Assembly: GCA_024741835.1 (NCBI GenBank) | Contig: JAENRP010000209.1 | Span: forward strand, 617 to 64,616 | Direction of reading: 5' to 3' | DNA length: 64,000 bases | DNA from: Diplocarpon mali | Taxonomy: Eukaryota > Ascomycota > Leotiomycetes > Helotiales > Drepanopezizaceae | Shown here: piece by piece, positions 1 through 31,600 of the stretch | Layout of the letters: each line of letters begins with the position of its first letter | How positions within the stretch are numbered: position 1 is the first letter of the stretch | Program-made: the position numbers and the translations under genes | The notes under the pieces: model-generated | Seen by the model: only the letters and a program-made list of their open reading frames with translations | What the model was told of the DNA's origin: nothing | Databases searched by the model: none

Positions 1-3000
1 CCCCCCCTTTTCCCCTCCGTCGCCTGCGCGCCCCGTCCCTGCTAACATCTGCCAAGGTCACGCCGACTTCGACCCGTGGACGGGCAACCATCCCGAAGAT
101 CAGTTCTCCGAGGTGGCCATCCGCAGCGGCTACTACGATAAGAGCTCCATGACCCAGAATGAGGTCGGCTCGGCCAGAGCCTCCATCTTCCCCGCGCTCA
201 AGCACAAGAGCGGGCTGCAGACGCTCTCCTCCCTCTTCACCAGTGTGCTGGCGCAGCGGAGGGCCCACGGGCAGATCACCGCGGCCTCGACCTTCAAGCC
301 CCCGCCGCGGGTGACGGTGACGGACACCAAGAGAGAGCTGTGGCTGAAGGACCTGGCCAATACCACCATACCGCTGCGGCGCCTGAGCCGATCGATACCC
401 CACGGGATCCGGGGCAAGGTCTTGCTGGATCAATCCCTCAGCAAGAACATACCCATCGAGAGAGCCGTCTGGCTGGCGAAGTGTGTCGGTGCCAACGAGC
501 TGCGAGCCTTCCGGCGCAAGGGCGGCAGCGGAACCTTTGCGATGGGCGGCGAGGCCAAGTGGATTCGAGACTTTACCGTCTGCGTCGAGCAGTTCGTCGA
601 CAGTGTCGTCGGCACGTGTGGGGAGAAGGACTTCAAGACCCGGATCAGCTACGCGTACGTTCCTTGGCCCGCTTGAATTCTGCAGATCGCTCACTCAGTT
701 GGTGCAGGATACGTCTGGCAGCCCATTTCCACGCCGAGCAGCTCCTGGACAGGGAGCACTTCATGGACTGGCTCGTGGGATCCCTCGAGAACAGCCCCCC
801 AAACAAGCTCCCCATGTGGCTCCTGATCAGCCAGGTATACTGGAACGATCTCTCACAGTACCGAAGGTTCGGCCGCCGCTTGTCGGCGGCGCTCATGAAC
901 CAGCTGGCTGAGGTACGACCCGGCCGTTCCGTTTGCATCTGCGCGCCCCGTCGTTGTGATACTGACGCCCCAGCCAGACTCTGAACGACCCCGATCGCGA
1001 TATCCTCGCGCCCCTGTCCGCCCGGCTGACGAGCCTGTTGAGAGGACTGATCTCCTCCAACGCGCATAATTTCCTGACGCCCCGAACGTGGCAGACCCAC
1101 CGGGGAATGCTCACCTCCCCCGGCGGCGTGGGTGATGCCGCCCTGGGACCGGTTCTGGCGGCGATCGACCGTCGGAACCAGCGCTTCGTCGCCACGGGCG
1201 CCACGACGGAGCCCGGCCCGCGGCGACGGCTGATCGCCCTCCTGGATGGCTGTCTCGCGGAACCCTTCGCCCCCGAGCTGCCCCGGCTCTGTTGGGAGAC
1301 GGACCGCGACAAGGACCTGCTCGCGGCGACCGTGCTGGGCTGGGCCGCCTCACCTCACCGGCCGGGCAGCACCAAGATCTACGCGGCGGTCCGGATTCTC
1401 CGCTCCTGGAGCAGGCTGGGCACGGATGTCACGGGCTCGATCCTCGCCTTCCTCGACACGGCACCACGCGACTCGGCCTGCAGCAAGCCGGCGCTCTACC
1501 ACGTGGTGTCGGAGCTGGCTCGCTCGGCACACTTCTCCACGCCACGGTACGCCCGGTGGCTGATAGCCCGCGGAGGCATCTCGACGGGAGCGGACGTGGC
1601 CCCCGACGGCCCGGCGTCGACCCGGCTCCTCGCCGAGTTACCGACGCATCACGTCAGCGACAGTCTGGCCGCCCTCCGCACGGCCTTGCTCGGCCGGGCC
1701 GGACTGTCGACCACCGACGAGGATGGCCTGGTGCAGGAGTGCACAGCTCGCATCGCCCAGAGTCTGCCGGGGATGCAGGCGGGGGCCGACGGCAGGCTGG
1801 GGGCGCAGGACGATCTGGGATCCGCGGGGATCGCCGAGCTCCCTCCCGGCCTGAGTCGCACGGTGCGATCAGAACTGGGACTGTGGCTCCGGCAGCAGGC
1901 CCGGCGCCCGATGGGGCAGCCGACGAGGCCTCCGCTGGACGACTGGGACCCGCCCCCCGGGAGGGGCGGCCCCTCGGCCCGGCCCGGCTTGGCCTTCGAG
2001 ACGATCCGCCGCTACCTCGAAGACCTGGGGGACTTCTCCATGCTTGCCGACGTGCTCCAGATCGTCACGGCTTCCGGGGACGCCGACGTGCTGGCCTCGT
2101 GCGCCGACACGCTGGGCGCTCACCTGGAGATCTTCGCTGCGATTGGAGCGCTCAACGGCCTCTTCGAGATGCTCGCCAGCCGCCTGCGGACTCTGACCGC
2201 GGAGGCCGGCTCGGTCCCCCGGCGCTTCTTGGTTTCCCTCGCGGATCTGGCCGCGCGGCTCCCGGAGCACCGGGCCGCAGCTCAGCAGCTGGCGCTGGAG
2301 CTGGCGCGCAACGACCGGACGACGGCTGCGGACGCCTGGTCGCCCGTCTCAGACCACATGGCGATCGTCGAGACCGCCGAAGCAGATTTCACCGACGAGA
2401 TTGAGAAGGTGCTGGCGAGCGGGAACAGCATGGACCAAGCGACCCTGGAGCGCTTGTTTGCCCGGATCACCCTTCGCCTCGAGGCGTCGTGGGAGAAGGG
2501 GCCAGAGCAGCAACGCAGCTGCGCCTTGCTGCTCACGCGACTCCGCACGTTTGATGCGAAGCCGTTCGACCTGCGGATGGCCGCATGGGTCGGCCGGTGC
2601 GTGCAGCGGCAGAGCCGCCGCAGCATGATGCACGTCTTTGGCCCGCTGGTCAGCTTCGGGTGCCTCGCTCTCCGCGACGTCGCGCGTGGCTGTCGGTGCG
2701 GTGACGCCGACGCGAGCCCCGGCAGCTCGTACGTCCCCGGGACGTCTCTGGAGCTGCTCGGTCTGCTCGTGGCGCCGTGCAGCCTCCCCGGGCTCCTGAC
2801 CCTCGACGAGGCCTACCGGCTCCGCATCAAGCAGGCCCGCCTGCAGAAGGACAGCCCGATGGAGGTTCTGCCTGTCGTTCGTCGAGCCTTCGGGGAGGCC
2901 TTCTCCGCGGCGCATGCCCAGAGCACTCGGGCCGCCGAAGTGCGGGCCCTCCTCGAAAGCCGCGAGATGTACGCCTTCTACCAGCGGGTGGTGCTGCGGG

Positions 3001-4115
3001 ACCCCGTCGCCTTCGCGCAGGAGCTGGCCGTCCCGCTGCTCCGGAGCGCCAATCGCGAGACCGTCGCCGCGATCCAGACCAGCATCGACAGACTGCTGCT
3101 CGCCGGCCGCCGGGCCGAGCCGATCACACCCGAGCTCCTGCTGCGCCTGGCAGACGACCTCTCCCTGCCATTCTGCCAGGTCCAGCTCGCCGCGATGTTG
3201 CAGAGCCGCGCCGCCGTCGCGGACGGCGGCGACGCCTCCCCGCCGGAGCACCTTGCCGCCCTGGATAGCGCCATCGAATCCGCCGTCCACGCCGGGAACA
3301 CCTCGTGGGCCAGCATCATCCCCCTGCTCGACGTCTCCATCGCCCAGCACCTCCGGCGGCGCGCCGCCACCCAATTCCTGGGCGGCTTCCCTCCCCCCAC
3401 GGCGGGCGGGATCGAGGCTGCCGCGATGAGTACGCGGATCGCCCGGGCCGAAAACCTTCTCCGGATCATCGACGCGACGGCCTCCGGCATACCCGATGCG
3501 GCGCCGGACCCGAGCAATGCCACGCTGGCTTCCGATCTCGTCTCCACGCTCAACGGCACCTGGCTCCTCCTGGCAGGCACCCCCTCCCCGGCGATGCGAG
3601 AGAGCATCACGTCGCGATGGCTTCCTCTGCTCCTCTCCTTCACCACCACGCACGTCTCGGTGTTCGAGGCGACCAGGCAGGGTCACGAAAGCCGCGCCAA
3701 GGCCACCCTTACCCTCGCGGCCGTCTACCTCCAGCTCACGGCCCTCGAGATCCGCACACCGGCCATCCGCGACCTCGCCGAGCAGACGTTCGACCTGGCG
3801 CTCCACCTCGTGGATTCGCTGCCGGAAGACCTGCGCCTGCAGTGCGTCCGCAGTCTCCGGGATACCACGTCCAACCCGCAGATCGCGTATCTCTTCAGCG
3901 TCGCGAGCACCCCGACCGAGTCGCTGTGGCTGAGCCAGAAGGAGAGGGGTCCCGTCGTCCCAGGCACGAGCCCTGCCGAAGCGCGGCTCCCCGAGAAGGA
4001 GACGCTGACTCCTTTTGTCCTGCGGAGGTGGGAGATACTGGGAGAGCCGACGCCGAACGTCGGCGAGAACGATACGAGCTTGAGCTTGACCCTCTTTGGG
4101 GCCAGACGAGGATGA
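1..4115 (+). CDS. MED12: Mediator complex subunit 12 (5' end outside the window)
   Basis: Large subunit of the Mediator kinase module (CDK8, cyclin C, MED12, MED13), which modulates RNA polymerase II initiation in the nucleus; yeast orthologue SRB8. Exons joined by frame: <1-654, 708-912, 978-4115, giving about 1,330 visible residues. The first exon is open to the left edge in frame 2. Seen: a GHADFDPWTGNHPEDQ segment at 56-103, then the conserved Med12 core around 330-640 with IPHGIRGKVLLDQ and RAVWLAKCVGANE, continuing across the first intron into HFMDWLVGSLENSP. Both introns are short, with gtacgt/gtacga donors and phases 2 and 0. The rest is a long helical, low-similarity C-terminal half typical of the family. 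The coding sequence is very GC-rich, so several long ORFs on other frames here are shadows. Identity is confident; the true N terminus cannot be seen. Confidence 0.9.
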
Positions 4116-4531
4116 TGTTGCCCCCCGGGCACGTGTGGGAAGGGGCTGGTCAGGCTGGCCAGGCTGGCGCCTGTCGAAGGATTAGCGTTTACTACTACCG
4201 GGTCTTGGATTAGCGTGGCGTTTGGATACACGCATGGGATAGACGGACGAGATGTGACGAGACGAATGTAAATGACGCTGCCTTGTTTCCTGTTGCTGCA
4301 CATGACGTCCCGCCGTGACACCAGCCATCGGCCGAAGCTCTTGCCGTGCGTAGTTTGGCAGCTCCGCCGAAGACTTGAGCCAGGGGTCCTGGGGCGTGGG
4401 TATCTACACGTTTGGTGTACGGTCGGGCGGGGACATGTCCGTGATGACAAGAACAGCAAGGCTCTCCGACGTCTCGCACACATGCCACCCGTACCCGCCC
4501 CTCCCCACGCTCTCCCTCGCCGCGACCAGGG

Positions 4532-18867: not shown

Positions 18868-21116
18868 ATGAATATGGAAGACAAAGCCAAGCGGGGTCTC
18901 CGGATCACGACCTGGAATGGTAAGTCCAAGATCTTTGGATTTGAAATTGATGCTGTCTTTACAAATCGATGTGAATGCTAATCAGAAACAGTAAACGGTA
19001 TCAGGTCAGTTGTGCCAGAGGCCATCTGCACCTTGGCTGCTCTAGCCAGGATGCTGGATGCTGAGTACCGAACAGGAATCCCTTTGGATATCAGCCATGG
19101 CGTCAAGAAAGGACATTTTCCGTATGTGATATGCCTGGGAGCTGTAAGCGTGACGTCTCCTGACCCTTCTAGGCCATGTTCGAGATCCTCCAGGCAGATA
19201 TTGTTATCATGCAGGAGACCAAGATCCAGAGGAAGGACCTCCGCGATGACATGGTTCTGGTCCCCGGCTGGGATGTGTTTTTCAGCCTCCCAAAGCATAA
19301 GAAGGGTACGGGGAGTTCATACACAAGCCCATGAGCTTGGCTGACAAGACCAGGGTACTCGGGAGTTGCTGTTTACACTCGCAATTCTGTCTGCGCCCCT
19401 ATCCGAGCCGAAGAAGGCATCACGGGTGTTTTGACTCCACCAAATTCCCCCACGAGCTTCTCCGACCTCTCTGAAGACCAGCAGATTGGTGGATATCCCA
19501 GTCCTCGCCAGCTTTCCGAATGCTCTCTTGACGCTGCGACGTTGGACTCCGAAGGCCGCTGTGTCATCCTCGAGTTCCCTGCATTTGTGCTCATCGGTAC
19601 TTACTGCCCTGCAAATCGAGATGAATCGAGAGACCATTTCCGTATCGGCTTCTTGAATGCCTTGGATGCTCGTGTACGTAATCTTGTAGCTGCTGGTAAG
19701 AGGGTCTTCTTGACTGGGGACTTGAACATCGTTCAAGGGCCAATTGACTCGGCGAATGCGGAGGAGCAACTGCGGAAGCAGGGAATCACGAGCGAGGAAT
19801 ACATCTCAACTCCGGCAAGGAGAATGCTGAACCAGCTTCTCGTAGGTGGGGAAGTCGTCGGGGATCGAGACGAAGGCAGAGAGGAACCAGTCATGTGGGA
19901 TATCTGTCGGTCCTTCCATCCCACACGCAAAGGAATGTTCACGTGCTGGGAGCAGAAGATCAACGCTCGTCCAGGAAATTTCGGCTCTCGGATTGACTAC
20001 GTTCTCTGCAGTCAGGACTGGAAGGACTGGTTCTGCGAGTCCGATATCCAGGAAGGTCTCATGGGGTCTGATCACTGCCCTGTATATGCCGTACTGATGG
20101 AGAAGGTCACGATCGATGGCAGAGAGGTGCACATCCGGGACATGATGAGCTCTGGGATCTTCGAGGATGGCATAAGACAACGGGAATGGTGTGCGAAGGA
20201 TCTACTTCCAATGTCTGCCAGGCTTATACCAGAATTCGATCGTCGCCGCAGCATTCGGGACATGTTCAGCAAGAGACCTCCCCTCCCGGCAGCAGAAAGC
20301 CCTGCCCAGGGTATGGTTTTACGAGATGCCAGCCAAGGTGGAGGTTCACTGCCACCGAATGGAACAACTATGCCTGGAGAGGCTCTTGCCAAAGATTCTG
20401 CGAGTGCTGCACGCGTTTCTGCCGCAAATGATAAACCAAGAGAGCCAAAATATACAGACACCTCCATGGCGAAAGAGCCGAAGACGGCCTTGATGCCAGG
20501 TCCTGCGAAGCCCGTCAAACGACCAAGTGATTCCTCTTCATCCATACGGCCTCAGAAGCGTGGCAAGACTGGCACAAATTCGAAGACGGCAGGAGGCAAG
20601 GGACAGTCTGCAAAAGCACAGAGCAGTCTGATGGGATTCTTCAAGCCCAAAGCACAGCAACTAGACAGCCCGCCGGGGCTGGGGAGCCAGAAAAATTCAA
20701 TTCATGATGCAGACTCGGACACAGCAAGCCTCGCAGACAATGATATCCCGTCTGGATCTCCGAGCCCAGATCACTCTGCCAAGCAAATGTCATCTTCTAC
20801 GGATGACTTCAACACCTATCCCCCCCCGAAGACATCCGACCCTGCAGACCCGGTTGATGTGGTCGACCCAATTGTTGCCAAGGAAGGCTGGTCAAAGCTC
20901 TTGGGAGGCAAGCGGATTGTCCCTCGGTGCGAACACGACGAGCCCTGCATCAGTCATATCACGAGAAAGGCTGGTGAGAACTGCGGGAGATCATTCTTCA
21001 TGTGCCCGAGGCCTCTGGGCCCCTCTGGGAAGAAGGAAAAGAACACCGAATGGCGCTGTGGCACTTTTATTTGGAGCAGCGACTGGTCTCTGAAGAATGC
21101 GCTTGATGCTCGCTAA
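18868..21116 (+). CDS. APN2: DNA-(apurinic or apyrimidinic site) lyase 2, class II AP endonuclease
   Basis: Base-excision repair nuclease cleaving 5' of abasic sites, exonuclease III (ExoIII/APE2) family. Exons 18868-18919, 18992-19004, 19076-19121, 19173-19305 and 19354-21116; 668 aa. The joined N terminus reads RITTWNVNGIRNPFGY, with WNVNGIR spread over exons 1 and 2; exon 2 is a 13-nt microexon. Catalytic motifs follow: IVIMQETKIQR (metal-binding Glu), FLTGDLNIVQGP, RIDYVLCS and GSDHCPVYAVL (C-terminal Asp-His pair). A linker of about 250 residues with a SSLMGFFKPK motif resembling a PCNA-interacting (PIP-like) peptide precedes the C-terminal GRF zinc finger (RCEHDEPC..NCGRSFFMCPRP..WRCGTFIW). 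APN2 is the classic left flank of MAT in Pezizomycotina. The protein has family-normal length and no lesions. Confidence 0.93.
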
Positions 21117-22701
21117 AGTGCAGTTTCATGGTCAGGTCGATTCATTCAGATGAGGAGCTATGAGTTCTACGCAATATCGCAGTAGGCTAAGTCAGGGATG
21201 AGAGGCTCTACTTGATTTGTTTCTGGGTTATACTAATATACACTTGCAGGAACAAGCTGTGGTACGAGGGCACATATCCGACCATCTCGCTGTAACTATG
21301 GCATCTCCCTTGGTATTGACAGCTAGTATCGAGGCAGCTAACCAGCCGCGAGGTCGAAGAAGCGACTGGGTGTGCATAGGATCGGGCCTGGGATACCGAG
21401 GCATCTAGAAGCATCTCGCTGGGACACCAAGAATGCGCACACGGTACCAAGATGGCACTTGTAGGTCCCGGGATATGATATCAGGAGGGTACGGAGGGGG
21501 AAATGGCAGCTTCCAAACAACAACATCACCACGATCCTCTTCTTCAGATCTATCGGCTTCACGTGCCCACCTCTCTCTGACTTCCCTGCTCTAAGATTGA
21601 CTGTGCCACCAACAACCCCACGGAAGAGCCCTGCAAAACACCGAATACCGAGCCGTAACCCGCAGATCGTGCCATCACCGATCACCTCCCCAAACCAAGC
21701 AGCGCACCCACCGCATTCGCAGGTCACGTTTCCCCCTTGGACCCCCTTCTCCATCCCCAAGCCAGCTCGGCCTCCGCCTCCCCGGCACCTGGACCTGAAC
21801 CTGAACCTGAACCTCATCCTCGGAGCAGAGCCTCACCCGCTCGTCTGCACGCTCAACGCCCCGCCCCGCCATCTGGCTCCGTTCCCTGTTGGAAAAACAC
21901 CCGCCTCCCCCGTTTCCAGAACACGCGAGACGACCAGCCCCCCGAGTTCGTGGGCCGCGCGAGGCCGCCAGCCTCCGGCATTCAGGGACGGCGCTAGACG
22001 ACCAGCCCCCGAGATTCGCCAGTTTGCCAGTTCGCCAGCTCGGGAAAGGTGAGGGCGCGAGGGGCGAGGGGCGAGGGGCGAGGGGGTTTTGTGCCCGTCG
22101 CGCGTGGCGTTGCCGGGCCAGCCGCGGCCGGAACCTCGCGACGGGGGCTGGTAAACAAAGCACAGGGCTTGCATCTGCGCGCGCTGCCGCACAATCTCCA
22201 AACCGGCTACAGGGCAGGAGGGGGAAACGTTGGGCTCTCTGAACGCATTGTGTATTATTCTAGTCAGAGGTTGCTATGGTGCTTTGAATCTAGTTTACAG
22301 TTTTTCACCCATCCATCCATCCGTGATCGGTCCATGTCCATCCTAGGCTCCGGTGAACGAGACCCCAAAGGTCCCAGTGGCTGTGAGCGGCCGACAAATA
22401 GAATCAGGACGCCGCGGCAAAACAAACAACGGGCTGGGGTATCATGCGATGCAAGAGTAACGCTGGTCAGGAAAGGCTGTACAGGATATGTCTCCAGTCC
22501 CCTGAAAGCTGATGATCATGTGAGAAGGCTGGAACACCGGTATTCAGAACAGTGGTATTCAATGCCGGAAGTCTCGATGGAAGCGGTGACTGGTCAATTT
22601 TCGCGAGCACTGAGGCCCCGTCGGATGATCGCCGCTTTGCTGTCCCCGTTGGTGAAGACCAGAGACGTGGAAAGGGCGGCGGCAAGTTGATGTGGTTTTC
22701 C
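21117..22701. other. MAT left flank, APN2 to MAT1-2-1
   Basis: About 1.6 kb between the stop codons of APN2 (+) and MAT1-2-1 (-). The middle, about 21,600-22,200, is very GC-rich with repeated 'cgaggggcgaggggc' and 'cctgaacctgaac' type direct repeats, then composition falls towards MAT1-2-1. No gene is supported. The left edge of the idiomorph should lie in this interval or close to it, but it cannot be placed without a MAT1-1 strain. Confidence 0.5.
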
Positions 22702-24107
22702 TTAGTCTTGGGAAAAGAAGAGGCTTGCGAGGTCCGTATCAAATTCTGACTCGATGAATTCGTAGCCGTAATTATCGTTGACGCCGAAGTTGAGTGGTCT
22801 ATGAGCCATGGGGCCATTGATCTCATTGAAGCGAGCCCGATCTTCGTCTGTCTCGAAGTCGCTCATTAGTCTGGTGGCGTTATCGTAATCCAAGGAGAGC
22901 AAGGGATCATCTGGTTGGGTTGGGGCGGTGATCATAGCAGCAAAGTCCTCGCGATGGCCTTGATCCAGAGTCTGCAACTCGAAACCTTGTCCTTGTGGCT
23001 CCATGACCGGGATATCGATCAATCCGCCAATGTCAGATTGACCGGCAACAGTGGACCACTCATTAACTGGTAGCATGGCCGTTGGAAACGTTGGTCTCTC
23101 CATGTTTGGAAACTCGGGAATCTCGGGCATGGTAGGGAATGGGAGTTGCTCGGGAGCGTTGGCTGAAGCTCGGCCGATGCGGGCAATCTTCTTCTTGGTC
23201 ATGCGACGCTTCTTCTCTGATGACTTTCTTGGTCTGAAGGCATAATCTGGGTAAAGTAGGGCATGCTCTTCCTTGGCCTTTTGAGCGAGACCTTTGTAAT
23301 GTTGAACAAGAACGGCGGGGGCAGTCTTCCACATCTGGGAAATGATTTGAGCTGTGGTAAGTTAGTGTTTGTCGATGAGCTTGGCAGGATCAGAAGCTTA
23401 CAGATATGAATGTTGCTAAGATGCGGATTATCGCGAGCAACAGACGCCTGTATTTGAGTGCGGAAGATGATAAAGCAGTTCATTGGGCGGGGAATCTCTG
23501 CTCGAGCAGGTCGGCGCACTGCTCCCGATGAAGAGGTAGTGGTAGCGATGATGCTGCTGGATGCAAGGGTGTTGTTGGGGGAGGTGTACAAGATTGGTGC
23601 GGTAGCAACACTGAGAGAAGAATCTGTAGCAGTGACCTGGTCGGTTTGATCAGACAGGTTTCCAGAATTAATTGCAAGTTCATCGGAAGTGATGACTCGG
23701 GCGCTGGCAGTGAGCTGTTGCTCGGTGTCACGATTGTTGACATCAGTTGCGGGGCCGTCAACAATGATGGGGATATCACCAGCGACGTCGACGTAGCGGC
23801 AAACCCTATCAAAGAAGGATTTGGGGCCCAGGAAGACACGGGGCAGTTTGTTGCAGCGCAACCACATGAGGTCTGGGTAGTTGTCGGTCCTGTGAAAAGT
23901 AAGGATGTGCGCGTAGTTCCGAGGTGTAACTTACAAGTATAGCTCCATCGTATGAACTCGCCAGTTAGCATCCCAGCCTGAGAGTCTCGACTCCATGATG
24001 GTAACCACACCATTCTCGTCGCGCTCTCCATTTTCAACTCTCATTCTGGTTTCCCAATGGTGGGTGAACTCGCCCGCCGAGGCTGGTGCGGTTATTTGGG
24101 ACGACAT
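22702..24107 (-). CDS. MAT1-2-1: Mating-type HMG-box transcription factor MAT1-2-1
   Basis: Master regulator of the MAT1-2 mating identity: a nuclear, sequence-specific DNA-binding protein with one MATA_HMG box. Exons on the minus strand: 24107-23935, 23889-23402 and 23351-22702; introns of 45 and 50 nt; 436 aa. The HMG box spans about residues 187-265: IPRPMNCFIIFRTQIQ, then HLSNIHIS and QIISQMWKTAPAVLVQHYKG, followed by basic RPRKSSEKKRR. The second intron interrupts the HMG-box serine codon (phase 1), the intron position usual in fungal MAT1-2-1 genes. The N terminus carries SGWDANWRVHTMELYL; the C terminus is acidic. An upstream in-frame ATG at 24182 would add 25 residues. It is divergent from the unrecognised gene at 24528 and convergent with APN2. 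Its presence marks this chromosome as carrying a MAT1-2 idiomorph. Confidence 0.92.
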
Positions 24108-24527
24108 CACGAGGTCGGATGCGATTAGTTTTTGGGCGAAGATCTGTATTTGAAACGATCGGTGATGTGCAGAAGCAATCAAGAAATGGAATTATGCTTG
24201 TAGTTGGACTTGGGCGATGTTGTATGGTTGAGGTTTAGGTGATTTGGTTTTGAGCGTGGTGAGAGATTTATAGATTTAAAATTGTGCGGGAAGACGCTAA
24301 GTTGGAAGCGAGCATCAAAGGTGAATGCGAACTCCAGCCACGATTATTCTCTGTCCCCTTAGAAGTCACTTCAAAAGCGAGCTTGATAATTTGCACGGGC
24401 TCGCTCAGCAAGGCAGAGCGAACCTGCTAACGCACAGTGCTTGTACGTAACCTATACACGGGTCACAATATTTCTGAACAACTATCTCGATCAGCAAGTC
24501 AGCAAGTGTAAACATCGCGGATTCAAG
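24108..24527. promoter_or_regulatory. Divergent promoter inside the MAT1-2 idiomorph
   Basis: 420 bp between the start codons of MAT1-2-1 (-) and the unrecognised gene (+). Its content is AT-richer than the flanks. Head-to-head arrangement suggests coordinated expression of the two idiomorph genes; I cannot point to a specific operator. Confidence 0.5.
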
Positions 24528-25423
24528 ATGCAGGATGGAAACAACTTCGAGCCCTCCCAGAAAAAAAAGAAAGGCATCTTGGTCGAGCCACCCAAGGAGG
24601 AATCATGGCTGCAAGAAGTAAAATCTTTCGCCGAAGACTTCACAAACTTTCAGGGGGAGGAGCTGCCATCAACACCAAAGGCGGATCTGGGTATAGGGCC
24701 TGTTAAGTACGCAATGAAGCTAATCGCCAAGGACGGACTTGCAGAGAAGCGCTTTCAACTTCTTGATCGCACCGTCAACCTCGAAAAGATGCTTGGAGAT
24801 TATTGGATCAAGGTTGAAGCTACCCTGATGTTCGCAGCATTTGGCGTTGAAGATCCTTTGCCTTGGTTGCCAGCTATGCAGCACTACGCCATCCGGATGG
24901 ATCTACGAGAGTGAGTCTTCATACTTTGGACCATGGCGGCTTGACTTACGCTATATTAGGATGACCACAAGATTTGTGAATAGACACGGCCTCGTACGCA
25001 ATGCACGAGTAGACCATGATGGTCTCTCGCATATGGTACAGGATTTCAACCAGATCGAGGGTAGTATGAACAGGGCAGAAGTACTTCTGATGGCCCAATT
25101 TGTTCCCAAGAGAGTTCAAGCAACGTCTCGTTCCAGTCCAAATCCCATTCCAACGATCGACTTGACGAAATTTGCAGATATCTGTGAGTTTTCCGGGAGA
25201 GACTCGAACATACACGAGCTGAAATTTTCCAGTCGATAGGCATCAGATGGAGAGAGGCCGTGTCGAAGCTTCCCATAATCTTGTTTGTAGACTTGTCCTT
25301 GGAGCAGTAGCCGAGGAGGAGAGCATGCCTGACACGAATTACGCAGCCATTGATCCACAACTCGAGACAGACCCAGATATACTCAAACAGAGCTTGGTGG
25401 ACCGTGGACACGTAATGGATTGA
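24528..25423 (+). CDS. Unrecognised MAT1-2 idiomorph gene (265 aa)
   Basis: A well-supported three-exon gene: 24528-24910, 24960-25183 and 25233-25423, introns of 49 nt each with gtgagt donors and tattag/ttccag acceptors, all phases consistent. The start is the first good ATG (MQDGNNFEPSQKKKKG); the sequence is open further upstream in frame but has no ATG. Seen: a lysine cluster near residues 11-16, an acidic/amphipathic segment (EESWLQEVKSFAEDF), a central helical region (FQLLDRTVNLEKMLGDYW), then KRVQATSRSSPNPIPTIDL, and an acidic C terminus ending RGHVMD. No HMG box, alpha box, signal peptide or membrane span. Position and orientation resemble the secondary MAT1-2 genes of some Leotiomycetes (for example MAT1-2-10 of Botrytis), but I cannot establish homology. 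It may be a lineage-specific mating gene. Confidence 0.75.
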
Positions 25424-25589
25424 AAAAAGCGGAGGGTACTCACGGGATAATATAAAGTTTCTGTGTTCCATCGGCAGGAGTAAGAATGTTATCTGTTAAC
25501 CAGACCGTGCGATCAAAGAAGTTGACTTATCATATGGCTAACAAAGAAACAGTTGGAAAGGAAAGCCAAGCCCCCAAAACGCTGTACGA

Positions 25590-26316
25590 TTGGCCGAGTT
25601 TCATGGAGGAATGCGATGTATTAAAATAGAAAGTCTCAAGCCACGAGCACCTCTCGACAAATACATGAGCGTTGTCTGCCCCCAGATGGGCATCATCGCT
25701 GTGCCGGCATACCTCGGCATGCTCCACTGGACCTACGAGCGCCCGGCGGACGGGGCTCCCACCTTGACTCAGAGCGCGGCGCCGGATCTGCAAGCGCTCG
25801 ACCAGCACATCCTCCGCTCCAACATGACGGCGCAGGACCTGATCAGCTTCTGCGGGAGGGTCGGATACATCCCGCGGTCGATCGCCCGGCGCCTCGGCGG
25901 CCAACAGTCCTCGGGCTCGCCGCAGCACGGGCTGCTCGCGTCGACCCCCGATCTCGGCTTGGTGCCGGTCGGTGGCCGGGAGGAGAGACGGGAGCCGGCG
26001 GTCGCGTCGCGGCCGGCCGACCTCCCGCTGGCGCCGAGCGACGGCTGGACGGGGAGCATGTCGGATCTCTACCACCCCTCGGAGGGCAGCGTGGACTTTG
26101 AGCGGCTGCTGAGCGAGCCTCACGCCAGCGCGTGGGACACGGTCAGCATCTACGAGCCCGCGTCGCTGGACCGGCTGCTGGAGAGCGGCGGGGTGGCCGA
26201 CGGGTTCCTCGCGCCTTGTGGTAAGCCGCGCGCCTCCCGAGTCCCTGCACCCGCACAAGGAAGCGATGCTGACAGCCACAGTTCCACAGATGGGCCGCGG
26301 GGCCTCCTGGGGTTAG
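25590..26316 (+). pseudogene. MAT1-1-1: Truncated MAT1-1-1 (alpha-box gene) 3' fragment
   Basis: Remnant of the opposite idiomorph's alpha-domain gene. The open frame runs 25590-26220, then a 61-nt intron (gtaagc..cacag, phase 1) and a last exon 26282-26316. Recognisable is the segment just after the alpha box of MAT1-1-1 proteins: RAPLDKYMSVVCPQMGII followed by VPAYLGMLHWTYE. The region downstream, about 160 residues (SDLYHPSEGSVDFERLL, SIYEPASLDRLLES), is like a divergent MAT1-1-1 C terminus. The alpha box itself is absent; upstream sequence becomes AT-rich idiomorph DNA from roughly 25,650 leftwards. The ATG at 25590 lies in that unrelated part and may not be a real start. Without a DNA-binding domain the product cannot act as the alpha-box activator. 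Identification rests on motif memory, so confidence is moderate. Confidence 0.65.
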
Positions 26317-27168
26317 CGTGCCCGGCGGCTTCATTCCTCTCACGGGGGGGGAGGGAGTCGGGGGCGGGAGTCGAGAGTCGGCCCGGAGGTCGACATGGCT
26401 GTTGTGAGCAGCTCACGCCCGCGCCAGGCCGAGGGGGTTGGTGGATTCGGAGCGGCGGAGGAGGGAGCGCGACCCGAGGATCGAGGACATGTTTGCTTCT
26501 CGCCGGGCCGCAGGTCGTGGAAATAAAGCTGAGGGGCTCATGCAGGGCGATGCAGGGTGATGCTCGGCGACCGGGGATTTGGGTGGTGGCAGCGGGCCCC
26601 GCCGGCCACACGTGCATCGCGCGCACATCGTCTGGCATCCGGCGCCTGACATGTGACGTGCGGCATGTGACGTGCCGCCCCAGCGTGCCGATGTGGCCGC
26701 GCCCGTCGAGTCGCCCGCGGTCCGACCCGCACCGGCCCGCCCGGAGCTAGCACGCGTCGCGCCGAATCAGCAGCGCAGGACGAACATGACGATCCACATC
26801 ACCGACACAGTCTCAGTCTCAGTTTCAGTCTTGGTCTCGGTCTCAGTCTCAGTCTCAGTCGCCGTCGCCGTCGCCGTCGCCGTCTCACTCGCCGTCCCCA
26901 TCCTGCTTGCGGCCTCCCGCCTCGCTCTGTCGCTGCTTGCCGACGAGGGAAACGGCCTGCACCGCTCGTCCCGTGCCGCCGACGCCAGGGAGCCGGGATG
27001 CATTTCGGATCCGGCCGAGCGGGCCGGTCCCTGCACGATCCTTCGGGGCGACAATGGCATGTTTGAACAAATCCGTATTCCTATCTGTATTATTCCTGTG
27101 TATATAGACATCTCTCCCTCTCCCTCCCTCTCTCCCTCCCTCCCTCTCCCAGGACACCTGCCCGGCCG
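26317..27168. other. Spacer between the MAT1-1-1 fragment and the small secreted protein
   Basis: GC-rich sequence without a supported gene. The ORF running on from the MAT1-1-1 fragment to 26,750 is a read-through of its terminal intron. The stretch contains the CAGTCT/CGCCGT microsatellite listed next and a CCCTCT tract near 27,112-27,150. Confidence 0.5.
26809..26890. repeat. (TCAGTC)n then (GCCGTC)n microsatellite
   Basis: About seven CAGTCT-type hexamers followed by about five CGCCGT hexamers. This compound tract looks like hexamer slippage with a base change spreading through part of the array. Confidence 0.8.
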
Positions 27169-27435
27169 CTATTGCTCCTGCGTGCACAGGACGAGCCACA
27201 GACACTGCGTGTTCAGATCCTTCCCATCACAGGATACCTCGTTCGCCGCATTCGACATGCTGTCCTGGCTCGCGGTGAAGCCAGTCGTGCAGACCTCGTC
27301 CGTCGTCGCGCAGTAGTTCACGTCGCCCTTGGCGCAGAAGCCGGCAAAGGTCGCGCCGTACAGCATCTCCGGCGTCTCACTCCCCGACGCCATGACGAGG
27401 ACGCCGGCCGAGACGAGGAGGGCGAAGAGGTTCAT
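27169..27435 (-). CDS. Small secreted cysteine-rich protein (88 aa)
   Basis: Putative single-exon gene. The chosen start gives a typical short signal peptide (MNLFALLVSAGVLVMASGS) with a hydrophobic core at residues 3-16 and small residues before a likely cleavage site. The mature part of about 70 residues has six cysteines (FCAKG, YCATTDEVC, SCDGK, QCLWLVLC), suitable for three disulphides, and is slightly acidic. An upstream in-frame extension to 27552 is Arg/Pro-rich and would hide the signal peptide. No family is recognised; by form it could be an effector-like or cell-wall-associated protein. It lies between the MAT1-1-1 fragment and SLA2, an interval usually without genes. A chance ORF is possible because GC is high, but signal peptide plus six Cys argues against that. 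Confidence 0.5.
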   Translation of the reverse strand: MNLFALLVSAGVLVMASGSETPEMLYGATFAGFCAKGDVNYCATTDEVCTTGFTASQDSMSNAANEVSCDGKDLNTQCLWLVLCTQEQ

Positions 27436-27774
27436 CGGGGCTGCTCCGGGGGGTAGATGTGGATATAGGTGGCGAGGTCGATATCTCCCGCAGCCGGGGG
27501 GAGAAGCGGTAGGGACACGTCGCGCACCGCGACTGCTGGAGGTGGTCGTCACAGACGAGCAAGAGGCTCAGAATCGTCACTGACGAGCAAGCAGACGAGC
27601 AAGAAGCAGACGAGCAAGAATCAGACGAGCAAGCAGCCCAGAGCAGCAGAGATGCGTAATTGGGACCGCCCGTCTACGCACGCTCGCGCGTATATATACG
27701 TGTCTCTCACACATAGATCCAAAACCTGCTTCGTTTCACTTGTTGTGTATTTGATTACTTGCTCTCTACGCTTT

Positions 27775-28020
27775 ACACTCTCCCCTCTACTTTAAACTCA
27801 CTCTCCTCGTACTCTCCCCTCTCTACTCCTCTTAAAACTCACTCTCCTCTTACTCTCCGCTCTCTACTCCTCTTAAAACTCACTCTCCTCGTACTCTCCG
27901 CTCTCCACTCTCCACTCTACTTTAAACTCACTCTCCTCTTACTCTCCGCTCTCCACTCTCCCCACTCCCCACTCCCCACTCCCCACTCTCACTCACCCCC
28001 CTCCCCTCCCCTCACTCTTC
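27775..28020. repeat. CT-rich minisatellite, about 40-49 bp units
   Basis: Four clear units share 'aaactcactctcctc' at about 27,793, 27,835, 27,875 and 27,924, with intervening 'tactctccgctctcc' blocks. The array then degenerates into CCCCACT repeats and a poly-C run near 28,024. Strong pyrimidine strand bias. Confidence 0.75.
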
Positions 28021-28613
28021 ACCCCCCCCCCTCGAACAAAACAAACGCCAGCCCCCCGCCAACATCTCGCTGCCGCATCGACGTGCCCGCACCGCGGTCG
28101 CCGGGCGTGCGCGAGGTCCGGGGCCTTGGCGGCTGCGAAGATGAGAGGGAGAGAGAGAGAGAGAGCCGGCAGAGATCGCAGGGCCCCAGGGGACGGCGTC
28201 GGGCCGGAGCGCATGTGACGTGTTCCCGAGAGGCGATGCGTCGCCGGGGGAAGGGGGGGAGGGAGAACGCGCGACGCGACGCCGCGGAGAGATGCCTTGC
28301 TGGCAATGCGGTACAGTCCTGCGCAGGGCAGGGCTTCGAGGCCGTGGAGGCGACCCGAGGGCAGAACGGAATACGAAGCTGGCGTGTGCACTCGCTGCTC
28401 TCGGATGGAGGAGCCCCAAGCAGCTGTGCAGACAGGCACCGGGGAGGCCCCGTCCGGGCCATCTATCCCCGGAGCCTCAGCATGCGCAGCACACACTTCA
28501 CCAGGGGAGGCGTGGGAAGAGCCTCCAGAGTGTCGCTGCAGTTGGCAATCCACAAGCTACGCGGCGAATATACACAAAGCTCTCCTCCACCCCCCACCCC
28601 CCCCCATCTGCCC
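28021..28613. other. SLA2 3' flank
   Basis: About 590 bp of GC-rich sequence between the CT minisatellite and the SLA2 stop codon. It contains a short GA tract at 28,143-28,163. No supported gene. Confidence 0.5.
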
Positions 28614-31600
28614 CTACTCCTCCTGGTACGAGACCTTCCGCATCTCGCCCAGTCTCTGCCTCGCCGCCGCCAGGTTGTTCTCCAGCTGTAGTATCTCCAC
28701 CTGGCATCCTGGTTAGAAGAGTGCGGGCGCCCGAGGAGGAGACTCGACCTACCTGCTGCTCCATCTCCTGAACCTTGAACTCGTGCGCGCCGAGCTTGCC
28801 GTAGTCGACCTTGTCCTCCTCCTGGTCGCGGTCCTGGATCATGCTCTGCACCTGTCTGACGAGCGCTCTGCACGCCGCCCCGACGGCCTTGCTGGCCTGC
28901 TCCAGGGATTCCTGACTCTTGCTCATGAAGCCGGCCTTGACGCGGCTGGCGGCCACGAGTTGGGCGGTCGACGCCGCCACGTTGTTGGAAGCGACAATCA
29001 GCTGCTCGGGGCTGTTGCGGCCAGACAGGACGCCATCGGCCGTCTCGATCAGCGTGTTGGTCGACGAGGCAACGGCCTTGGCGGCGGAGATCAGCCCCTC
29101 CGTCCAGCGGTTGTTCTTCTTGTAAAAGTTGCTCTTCGAGGATGTCCCCCGCCCAGCCTGCACGATCTCCTGCTGCGTCACCGTCGCCGCCTGGATCAGT
29201 TTCCCGATCGCGTTGGTCACGGACATGGCGGCGTCGAGGATCGAATCGTGGATCCGCAGCTCGTAGGTCGAGTAGCCGTCCTTGGGCTTGGACTTGAGCC
29301 TCGCGAGGCGCTCCGCAGCAGCATTGATAGCGTTTGCCGCCTTGTTCAGCTCGTCATCCACGAGCTCGCCCAGGTCGCCGCCCTTCGCACTCAGCTTTCC
29401 GCTGCTGGGCGCAAAGGAGTCGGCAAGCTTGCTGAGCTTCTGCAGGTTCATCAACACCTCGTTGTTGCTGTTGATGACCACGTCGGTCTTCTGCATCGGG
29501 TCCATCCCGTCGAGGCGGAAGCTCTGGAGACCGCGGAAGAACTTGACCGTGGACAGGGCGGATTGGCGCGCACCGCTGGTGAGCTGATCGGCCTTCTTAT
29601 CGTCCGTCGCAAGCCGAGTCAGCCCTTTGGTATTGCTCAGCACATCTGCGATGGAACTCGAGAAGATGTTGATGGTTCGGATGATCTCGGCGTGGCTGCT
29701 GTTGGGTCCGTCGGCAATGAAGTTGTTGAAGGATGTCGCGAACTCCATAGCACTCGAAGAAGCCTTCTCGATCTGCGAGAGGACGTACGAGGGGGTGGCG
29801 TTCTGGTTCCCGGCCTGCATCGAGGAGTCGAGCTCGTACAGGGCATCGTCGACTCGCTGAACACCGCTCTGCAATACCGAGTCGATAATGTCGTTGATCC
29901 TGTCGATGTTCGAGAGGAGCATAGCGTCGATCTCCCCGTCGAGGGCCTTGTCCGTGTCGCCCCGGGACATCTCCAGCTCATTCAGCTTGATGAGAGTGTC
30001 GTCCAGGCTTTGCTTGTAGACCTCCAGCTCATCCTCTTTCTCGCGCAGCAATCGCTCGGCGTCTGATCCGCCCTCGCTGTACTTGGCATGCACATCCTCG
30101 AGCGCACGAGATTTCTTGCGCAGGGCCTCCTCGAGATCCGCCATCTCCCGGTTGTACTTGGAGAGCATCGAGGAGAGCTCATTGCCCTTGCTGCGCTCCA
30201 GGTTGTCCGCCCGGTCGAGGGCCATCCTCAGCTCTCTCTTGAGTTTCTCGAGCTCCTCGCGATTCCCACCCGCAAGGCGATCCTTGTCGTGCAGAGCTCT
30301 GTCTCTTTCCCGGATCATGTCAGCCAGTTCCAGGTTCTTGGTCTTGATTTCCCGCTCGAGCTTCTCGCGCTTGTCAATCGCCTCCTGAGCGGATGCCGCC
30401 TTCAGCTGTACACCCTTGAATTTCTGTAGCAAGTCCAGATGCTCGTGGCGTAGCTGGGAATAGAGCTTTGCGAGCGCTTCGTACTTTGTCCGCCAGGTAT
30501 TGACTTGTTCTTGCAGGGCACGGATTTGGTCGTCCTTGCTCCCAATCTGCTGACCATAACTGTTCTGCAGTTGCGCGAGTTCGCTCTCCAAAGCCCTAAT
30601 CTTCTGGTCATATTGCTGGAGCATCAGCTGATCCCGGGCATATTGTGCTCTGGCATCAAAATTCTCCTGCTCCAGCTGTGCCATACGACCCTGAGTCTGC
30701 TGCTGGAATTGCTGGGCCAGAAGAGCCTCTTGGTCCCGCCTCTGCTGCTCTGCAAGTTGCCGCTGCTGCTCCTCGAAATCGCGCTGGGCCTGCAGTGCCG
30801 CTTGTTGCTGTGCGTAAAGCTGCTGAGCTTGCCGCTCTTCAAAGACTCTCTGCTGATCCTCGTATTCCTTGTTCTGCCGAGCCTGCTCATTCTTCCAGAA
30901 CTCGCCAATGTCATCTGGCTCCTCTTGCTTCGGCGCTCGCGGAGGGGTTATCTGTCTCTCGATCTCCTGCTTCGGCCGTTGAGGTAGCCTGGGGGCGGTG
31001 TCGTCTTCGGAGAGCAGGTTCGGAGGTTCTTGAGGCAATTTGGGCACAGTGATCAGGCTTGTGAGGTATCTGAGGTTCGAGCATTCGTAATAGAACTTGA
31101 CGAGGCGGTAATGCTGCGCATCATAACGGCCTCTGAGAGGTTCCAGCGCATCGTCATCTCCAGTTGCTACAGGCCATCAGGTTCAAGTTTCAGCCGAGAC
31201 CAGCACATTGCTTACTTGTATGCATGGCACGCAGCATGCTCGTGATGAATTTGTAGATGCCATAGCTCTCCTGCACCAGAGGAACTAGGGCGGATATTCT
31301 GCACTCATTGTGTCCACCGCTCCGGAAATGCGCGAAGATTAATTTCTGGAACAGCTCGATTCTATCTTGAAGCGCCATGAGGTCGGAGATCGTCTCGTAG
31401 CCTTCGTTTGGATCATTTATCCCCTTCAAGCTGATGTACTCCTCGTATTCGAACGTGCCATTGAAATCTGGATGCTGCGCATGAAAGGCCAGTTTGGCAA
31501 GCAGAAAGTTGACGTATTCTTTGATCAGGGGGCCGTAGCCCCGAAGACCTTCTCCGGGAAATCCTCTGTTCAGGCTGTCGATCCAGCTCCGGTTTGCCAT

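Follow-up and report, generated by a model that had tools for sequence, protein, structure and literature searches.

Why does a stretch of DNA with an intact MAT1-2-1 gene also carry a piece of MAT1-1-1, the gene of the other mating type? We addressed this question in 64,000 nucleotides (the window, by which we mean the whole stretch analysed) taken from one contig of an assembly that comprises 676 contigs and totals 49,369,952 bases. This stretch carries the MAT1-2 locus of the apple-blotch fungus Diplocarpon mali/coronariae (= Marssonina coronaria; Leotiomycetes, Helotiales, Drepanopezizaceae), D. mali being the sexual morph of D. coronariae, which was once named Marssonina coronariae (PMC11527701). 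The genes of the locus follow one another in the order APN2, MAT1-2-1, HP3, MAT1-1-1 piece, SLA2. A sequence-only reading had placed a headless MAT1-1-1 piece between MAT1-2-1 and SLA2, at 25,590-26,316, and its presence there is borne out by the features of the locus, which are as follows.

19335..21116, plus strand: 3' part of APN2, with an Exo_endo_phos domain above the cut-off and a GRF zinc finger just below it
22683..25637, no strand: putative MAT1-2 idiomorph, obtained by counting the published 2,955 bp back from 25,637; GC 0.489
22702..24107, minus strand: MAT1-2-1, a 436-aa open frame that includes a complete HMG box (55.7 bits); predicted exons 24107-23935, 23889-23402 and 23351-22702
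24528..25423, plus strand: HP3, a hypothetical gene of the MAT1-2 locus, named after PMC7864672; predicted exons 24528-24910, 24960-25183 and 25233-25423
25611..25637, plus strand: lead-in with an in-frame ATG, encoding MRCIKIESL fused to the tail; a possible but unproven start codon
25637..25638, no strand: putative SLA2-side idiomorph border, where the MAT1-1-1 likeness starts, in keeping with the published 679 bp
25638..26316, plus strand: 3' end of MAT1-1-1 (truncated MAT1-1-1), recognised from Pfam, the match to protein P0001 and the published 679 bp; exon 25638-26220, intron 26221-26281, last exon 26282-26316, TAG 26314-26316
25638..31176, no strand: GC-rich flank, with a GC content of 0.698 in the MAT1-1-1 tail
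27169..27435, minus strand: small ORF of 88 aa between the MAT1-1-1 tail and SLA2
28501..31176 and beyond, minus strand: SLA2, long frame of the 3' part, with the I/LWEQ domain and the end of the ANTH domain

The fragment encodes the last 205 residues of MAT1-1-1. Translation of 25,542-26,312 matches the Pfam model MATalpha_HMGbox (PF04769) with 39.4 bits, above the curated cut-off of 28.1, and the match is confined to profile positions 100-175 of 194. A protein search against MAT1-1-1 proteins, proposed with the sequence-only reading, found the expected C-terminal match: the best relative is a 306-aa alpha-box protein recorded under Marssonina coronariae (P0001, E = 1.1e-123), which presumably comes from the MAT1-1 strain NL1. 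The two proteins are identical at 193 of 194 residues before the terminal intron and at 10 of 11 after it, giving 203 of 205 in total; identity to the Drepanopeziza brunnea MAT1-1-1 (P0002) is 113 of 191. The likeness starts abruptly at KPRAPLDKYM, base 25,638, and the bases just 5' of this point encode MRCIKIESL, which is unlike MAT1-1-1. Of the extent first proposed, the end is thus correct (TAG at 26,314-26,316) but the start is not, the match running only from 25,638; the terminal intron (26,221-26,281) and the stop had been guessed rightly. The N-terminus of P0001 is unlike its relatives before FYQ, probably through a fault in the gene model.

The alpha-box core FYQNLFP...KAKW...YSKIRDAVG, present in full-length relatives, is absent from the fragment, which retains the C-terminal part of the Pfam-defined alpha-box domain and does not hold the complete MATalpha_HMGbox domain. 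The earlier statement that there is no alpha box is therefore right for the core but wrong for the Pfam domain, whose C-terminal part scores above the cut-off. The fragment also has the orthologous C-terminal region containing WTGSMSDLYHP (26046-26078), a motif that is invariant in 9 of 9 aligned proteins and largely retained in remoter relatives. A sequence search of the PDB with the fragment gave 0 matches at E values up to 1, and an AlphaFold2 model of the D. brunnea orthologue was discarded as too poor (mean pLDDT 37.3).

As a 3' part of MAT1-1-1 that lacks the core and lies near an intact MAT1-2-1 between APN2 and SLA2, the fragment belongs with the genes called dMAT1-1-1. It is a single copy: in six-frame, exon-by-exon searches of its own genome the Pfam model and the D. 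brunnea protein each gave one match, the fragment itself, and no complete MAT1-1-1 or upstream alpha-box part was found elsewhere in the 49.4 Mb assembly. The genome does not combine a complete MAT1-1-1 with a complete MAT1-2-1, as a homothallic MAT locus would; the HMG box of MAT1-2-1 is complete and MAT1-1-1 is present in the assembly only as a headless piece, and we reject homothallism. Repeat-mediated switching is likewise unsupported here, since between 22,000 and 26,800 direct repeats of at least 18 bases are absent and inverted pairs number only three, all of them weak (72-89% complementary). When the flank 25,600-28,600 was compared with its own genome it gave, besides itself, seven short matches of 40-183 bases.

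Two of the neighbouring genes deserve a brief description. The protein P0009 (Diplocarpon mali JHW43_007823) is 99% identical to the HP3 of the window over 98% of the query; it is the public HP3 model and differs in its last exon, which is spliced towards the MAT1-1-1 tail. The product of the ORF at 27169-27435 has a hydrophobic N-terminus and several Cys, gave no match in a Pfam search, and looks like a small secreted protein; our guess is that this ORF is the published HP2.

The fragment is known in this species and is not a new discovery. A truncated MAT1-1-1 of 679 bp with 99% identity to the MAT1-1 copy was published for it in 2021 (PMC7864672, where accession MT819951 is cited for the MAT1-2 locus of Marssonina coronaria (Diplocarpon coronariae)). 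Counting back (26,316 - 679 + 1) gives 25,638, exactly the base at which the MAT1-1-1 likeness begins, and we placed the border from the protein comparison together with this published truncated length. The published locus shares with the window the species, the neighbours MAT1-2-1, HP3, APN2 and SLA2, and the 679 bp, and in the parts of the report available to us we found no structural difference between the two. Its authors presume a route from a homothallic locus, and those parts make no mention of base composition at the border. The idiomorphs are given as 3,618 bp for MAT1-1 and 2,955 bp for MAT1-2, and HP1 and HP2 are described as 'nearly identical' in both mating types (PMC7864672), so the flank is shared. 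In a comparison of four strains the largest protein difference was in MAT1-1-1, between MAT1-1 and MAT1-2 strains (PMC11527701); the word 'truncated' is absent from the main text of that report. Asian isolates include both mating types (PMC11527701), and NBRC 30405 is, like NL1, a MAT1-1 strain.

Very probably, the SLA2-side border of the idiomorph falls inside MAT1-1-1 and the tail is shared flank, most plausibly a passenger kept open by exchange. The border would interrupt the frame of MAT1-1-1 immediately 3' of the alpha-box core. In MAT1-1 strains the 5' part of MAT1-1-1 would lie within the idiomorph, and from codon KPRAPL onward the DNA would be flank common to both mating types, so that MAT1-2 strains have the same 3' part without the head. 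The earlier suggestion of a 3' end of MAT1-1-1 that is common to both mating types, at the edge of the idiomorph, is supported; the description of it as 'stranded' finds no support, as it is near-identical to the species' own MAT1-1-1. In MAT1-2 strains the tail would most likely be a passenger whose frame is kept open through recombination with, or conversion by, the copy of the tail on which selection acts in MAT1-1 strains. The shared flank and the 99% nucleotide identity are taken from print; that exchange keeps the tails alike, and that the fragment serves no purpose of its own, we infer. Flanks of recent common ancestry would show 99% identity even without ongoing exchange. The apparent presence of 'both mating types in one strain' would then be a border effect and not homothallism, and where mating type is called from domain hits, MAT1-2 strains could be misread because the fragment scores above the Pfam alpha-box cut-off.

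We asked how this headless copy relates to those of other fungi. A search with the fragment gave 8 proteins and a profile search at least 27 among the best 7,996 candidates, which were scored; the related proteins gathered comprise at least 28 MAT1-1-1-like proteins and one HP3. The headless copies used were that of the window, P0007 (Rhexocercosporidium), P0008 (Oculimacula yallundae) and P0010 (Cadophora sp. MPI-SDFR-AT-0126). P0025 and P0012 (on long contigs, starting inside the region), P0011, P0014, P0026, P0028 and P0029 were left out because their starts may as well result from gene calling or from the end of a contig, and sequence inspection covered the set apart from P0021-P0024 and P0027. 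In a tree of 10 proteins built on the common C-terminal region, the window pairs with P0001 (100/100), the headless Cadophora copy with a full Cadophora copy (96/98) and the headless Oculimacula copy with the full Rhynchosporium copy (97/96); the Rhexocercosporidium copy has no resolved place. Adding three distant proteins (13 rows) returned the same pairs, with supports of 100/100, 99/99 and 99/97. Forcing the four headless copies into one clade was rejected (p-AU 8.24e-07), in a test made after the first tree whose signal is partly the near-identity of the window and P0001, and in a set that has a full copy of the same species for only one of the four. Holding the window and Oculimacula alone together was also rejected (p-AU 2.03e-37).

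The break points are specific to the lineage. The window breaks at KPRAPL, the Cadophora copy 19 residues further on, the Rhexocercosporidium copy about 30 residues further on and the Oculimacula copy, judged by eye, about 33 residues past KPRAPL; the automatic local alignment of the last runs weakly to before KPRAPL, which we discounted as chance. D. brunnea is reported to lack a truncated copy in its MAT1-2 locus (PMC9225152). Since the break points differ and D. brunnea is apparently without the piece, the border seems to move between lineages. In P0010 most of WTGSMSDLYHP is gone and the branch length is 0.21, against 0.016 in the full-length Cadophora congener; judged by its sequence, this looks like a decaying copy, as would be expected of a functionless piece once exchange ends. 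The gene model of P0007 fuses an HP3 homologue (34% identity over 207 residues) to a MAT1-1-1 tail, which reflects either an error of gene calling or transcription that reads through from one gene into its neighbour.

Three other explanations of the fragment have to be weighed. Fragmentation of the assembly into 676 contigs would favour a chimera of MAT1-1 and MAT1-2 reads, but the published loci make this very unlikely, and we give it next to no credence: isolate YL7 has the same structure by long-range amplification and Sanger sequencing (PMC7864672), a MAT1-1-1 protein is annotated in the MAT1-2 strains DC1_JKI (short and long reads) and PGHB (PMC11527701), and the assembly holds no alpha-box core elsewhere. 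Alternatively, a complete MAT1-1-1 may once have stood beside MAT1-2-1 in a homothallic ancestor and later lost its head. Such a relic was suggested by the sequence-only reading, and has been proposed for Botrytis cinerea, Rhynchosporium agropyri and Monilinia and repeated for this species (PMC7864672, PMC9225152); for Grosmannia, an unequal crossover followed by loss of the alpha box has been argued (PMC3583454). We consider it improbable here and the suggestion unsupported. An old relic without exchange should diverge about as much as the species do, whereas this copy differs at 2 of 205 residues; the headless copies are not one lineage by the AU test (p-AU 8.24e-07) and their break points differ. 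Published reconstruction also suggests a heterothallic ancestor for the Leotiomycetes (PMC10569646), which for Sclerotinia/Botrytis is the more parsimonious view (PMC3574095).

Finally, the fragment may be a working gene in MAT1-2 strains, whose predicted 214-residue product, starting at 25,611, would act as a modulator, for example by binding the partners of MAT1-1-1. The in-frame ATG at 25,611 and the open frame would allow translation, the intron is plausible and WTGSMSDLYHP is conserved; the truncated gene of Grosmannia clavigera is transcribed at a low level (Cq 32.9, PMC3583454), and the predicted protein P0007 joins an HP3 homologue to the MAT1-1-1 tail. We nevertheless regard such a function as unlikely, because similar copies in Schizothecium, Myceliophthora and Humicola show little expression (PMC9949647), the headless Cadophora copy has mostly lost the motif and sits on the long branch (0.21 versus 0.016), D. 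brunnea is reported to lack the piece (PMC9225152), and near-identity to the MAT1-1 copy accounts for the open frame without a function of its own. A border inside MAT1-1-1, with the tail as shared flank, remains the reading that we prefer.

Base composition changes sharply at this border. Within 24,000-27,000 the best single change point for GC is at 25,678 (support 25,663-25,712), where the content rises from 0.472 to 0.702; in other words, GC has gone from 47% to 70% no more than 75 bp from the border. Third-position GC (GC3) is 0.879 in the tail, 0.511 in HP3 and 0.568 in MAT1-2-1. The DNA between the tail and SLA2 also has a GC content of 0.617-0.67, so codon preference alone is insufficient as an explanation. 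Measured in pieces of 300 bases, the GC3 of the long SLA2 frame increases from 0.62 to 0.90 as the border is approached (Spearman -0.976, n=8), and this rise of 0.27 is the largest among 25 frames of at least 400 codons in the window and the background samples, the next being 0.14. On the other side, APN2 shows no GC gradient. A GC peak (0.666) at 21601-22250, between APN2 and MAT1-2-1, lies near the putative left border of the idiomorph and not at it.

The background consisted of 20 samples of 10 kb, one from each of 20 contigs of 264-560 kb, with a mean GC of 0.453. The level seen from 25,638 onward was reached there by 1 of 320 stretches of 600 bases and by 0 of 60 stretches of 3 kb, and in the window by 4 of 106 and 1 of 21, respectively. 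Of those in the window, the 3-kb stretch and three of the 600-base stretches fall in 1-3,600, and the remaining 600-base stretch is the tail. This second island, at 751-4,200, holds an SRB8-like gene with a GC3 of 0.87 and is of similar strength to the flank, so GC islands also occur away from the mating-type locus.

The protein encoded by the tail shares in the shift. Gly, Ala, Arg and Pro together make up 0.364 of the tail, against 0.237-0.284 in six relatives; over 47 alpha-box residues the figure is 0.255 in P0001 and 0.213-0.255 in five full-length relatives. Among 42 positions at which the window differs from at least four of five agreeing relatives, 21 changes are towards and 8 away from amino acids with GC-rich codons (binomial p = 0.024). 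The corresponding counts pooled over six relatives taken in turn, under a slightly different rule, are 37 and 59 (Fisher p = 0.0025, the relatives not being independent of one another).

The cliff and the gradient at the border suggest, without proving, a GC-biased recombination hotspot. Such recombination would account at once for the cliff, for the gradient that follows it and for the tail identity, and raised GC does lie beside the non-recombining segment, as a hotspot would have it, with a similar island also at 751-4,200. We put forward, tentatively and as a possibility we would not favour at even odds, that a meiotic hotspot inside MAT1-1-1 fixes and shapes the border, and that GC-biased conversion between mating types gave rise to the tail identity, the GC3 of 0.88, the SLA2 gradient and the drift towards Gly, Ala, Arg and Pro. 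On this view MAT1-1-1 would be a gene of two speeds, with a head frozen inside the idiomorph and a tail lying in the hotspot; the tail protein would be dragged towards Gly, Ala, Arg and Pro even though MAT1-1 strains need the gene, and recombination at the border would depend on the headless copy as its template. GC-rich DNA beside or inside the mating-type locus of Cryptococcus is tied to recombination and to measured conversion (PMC3390403). Counting against a hotspot are a yeast study in which recombination does not drive local GC (cited in PMC3390403), a tetrad study of plants and fungi that found conversion without GC bias (to judge by its title, given in PMC6730849) and the rarity of the sexual morph of this fungus (PMC11527701). 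The limited literature that we surveyed on GC, conversion and hotspots at mating-type loci, from which subscription journals are mostly missing, includes by title no study of Helotiales. The composition cliff is the part of this locus worth following: if it reflects recombination, the border would offer a sharp, testable ascomycete model of what keeps the edge of a non-recombining sex-determining region in place, and of the effect of conversion on a gene that straddles such a border.

The nearest parallel to the composition of the flank is found at the MAT hotspots of Cryptococcus neoformans, which are likewise GC-rich, lie beside a largely non-recombining region and homogenise the mating types (study cited in PMC3390403); there recombination was measured, whereas for D. 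mali, an ascomycete, the parallel is one of composition. With regard to the fragment, one mating type also carries a piece of the other's gene in Botrytis cinerea, Rhynchosporium agropyri and Monilinia, where it is the dMAT1-1-1 (cited in PMC7864672, PMC9225152). The heterothallic fungi Grosmannia/Ophiostoma resemble D. mali in having a MAT1-1-1 without an alpha box beside MAT1-2-1, but their copy is described as upstream of MAT1-2-1 and as transcribed, and positive selection on it is reported in three of four named species (PMC3583454). In Schizothecium tetrasporum (Sordariales) the truncated MAT1-1-1, T-alpha-D1, retains most of the alpha-box domain, unlike the D. mali copy with its missing core; it yielded very few RNA-seq reads and was taken for a pseudogene, and genes similar to it occur in Myceliophthora and Humicola (PMC9949647). 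As in D. mali, T-alpha-D1 is the 3' end of MAT1-1-1 lying beside MAT1-2, and it is regarded as standing outside the mating-type locus proper.
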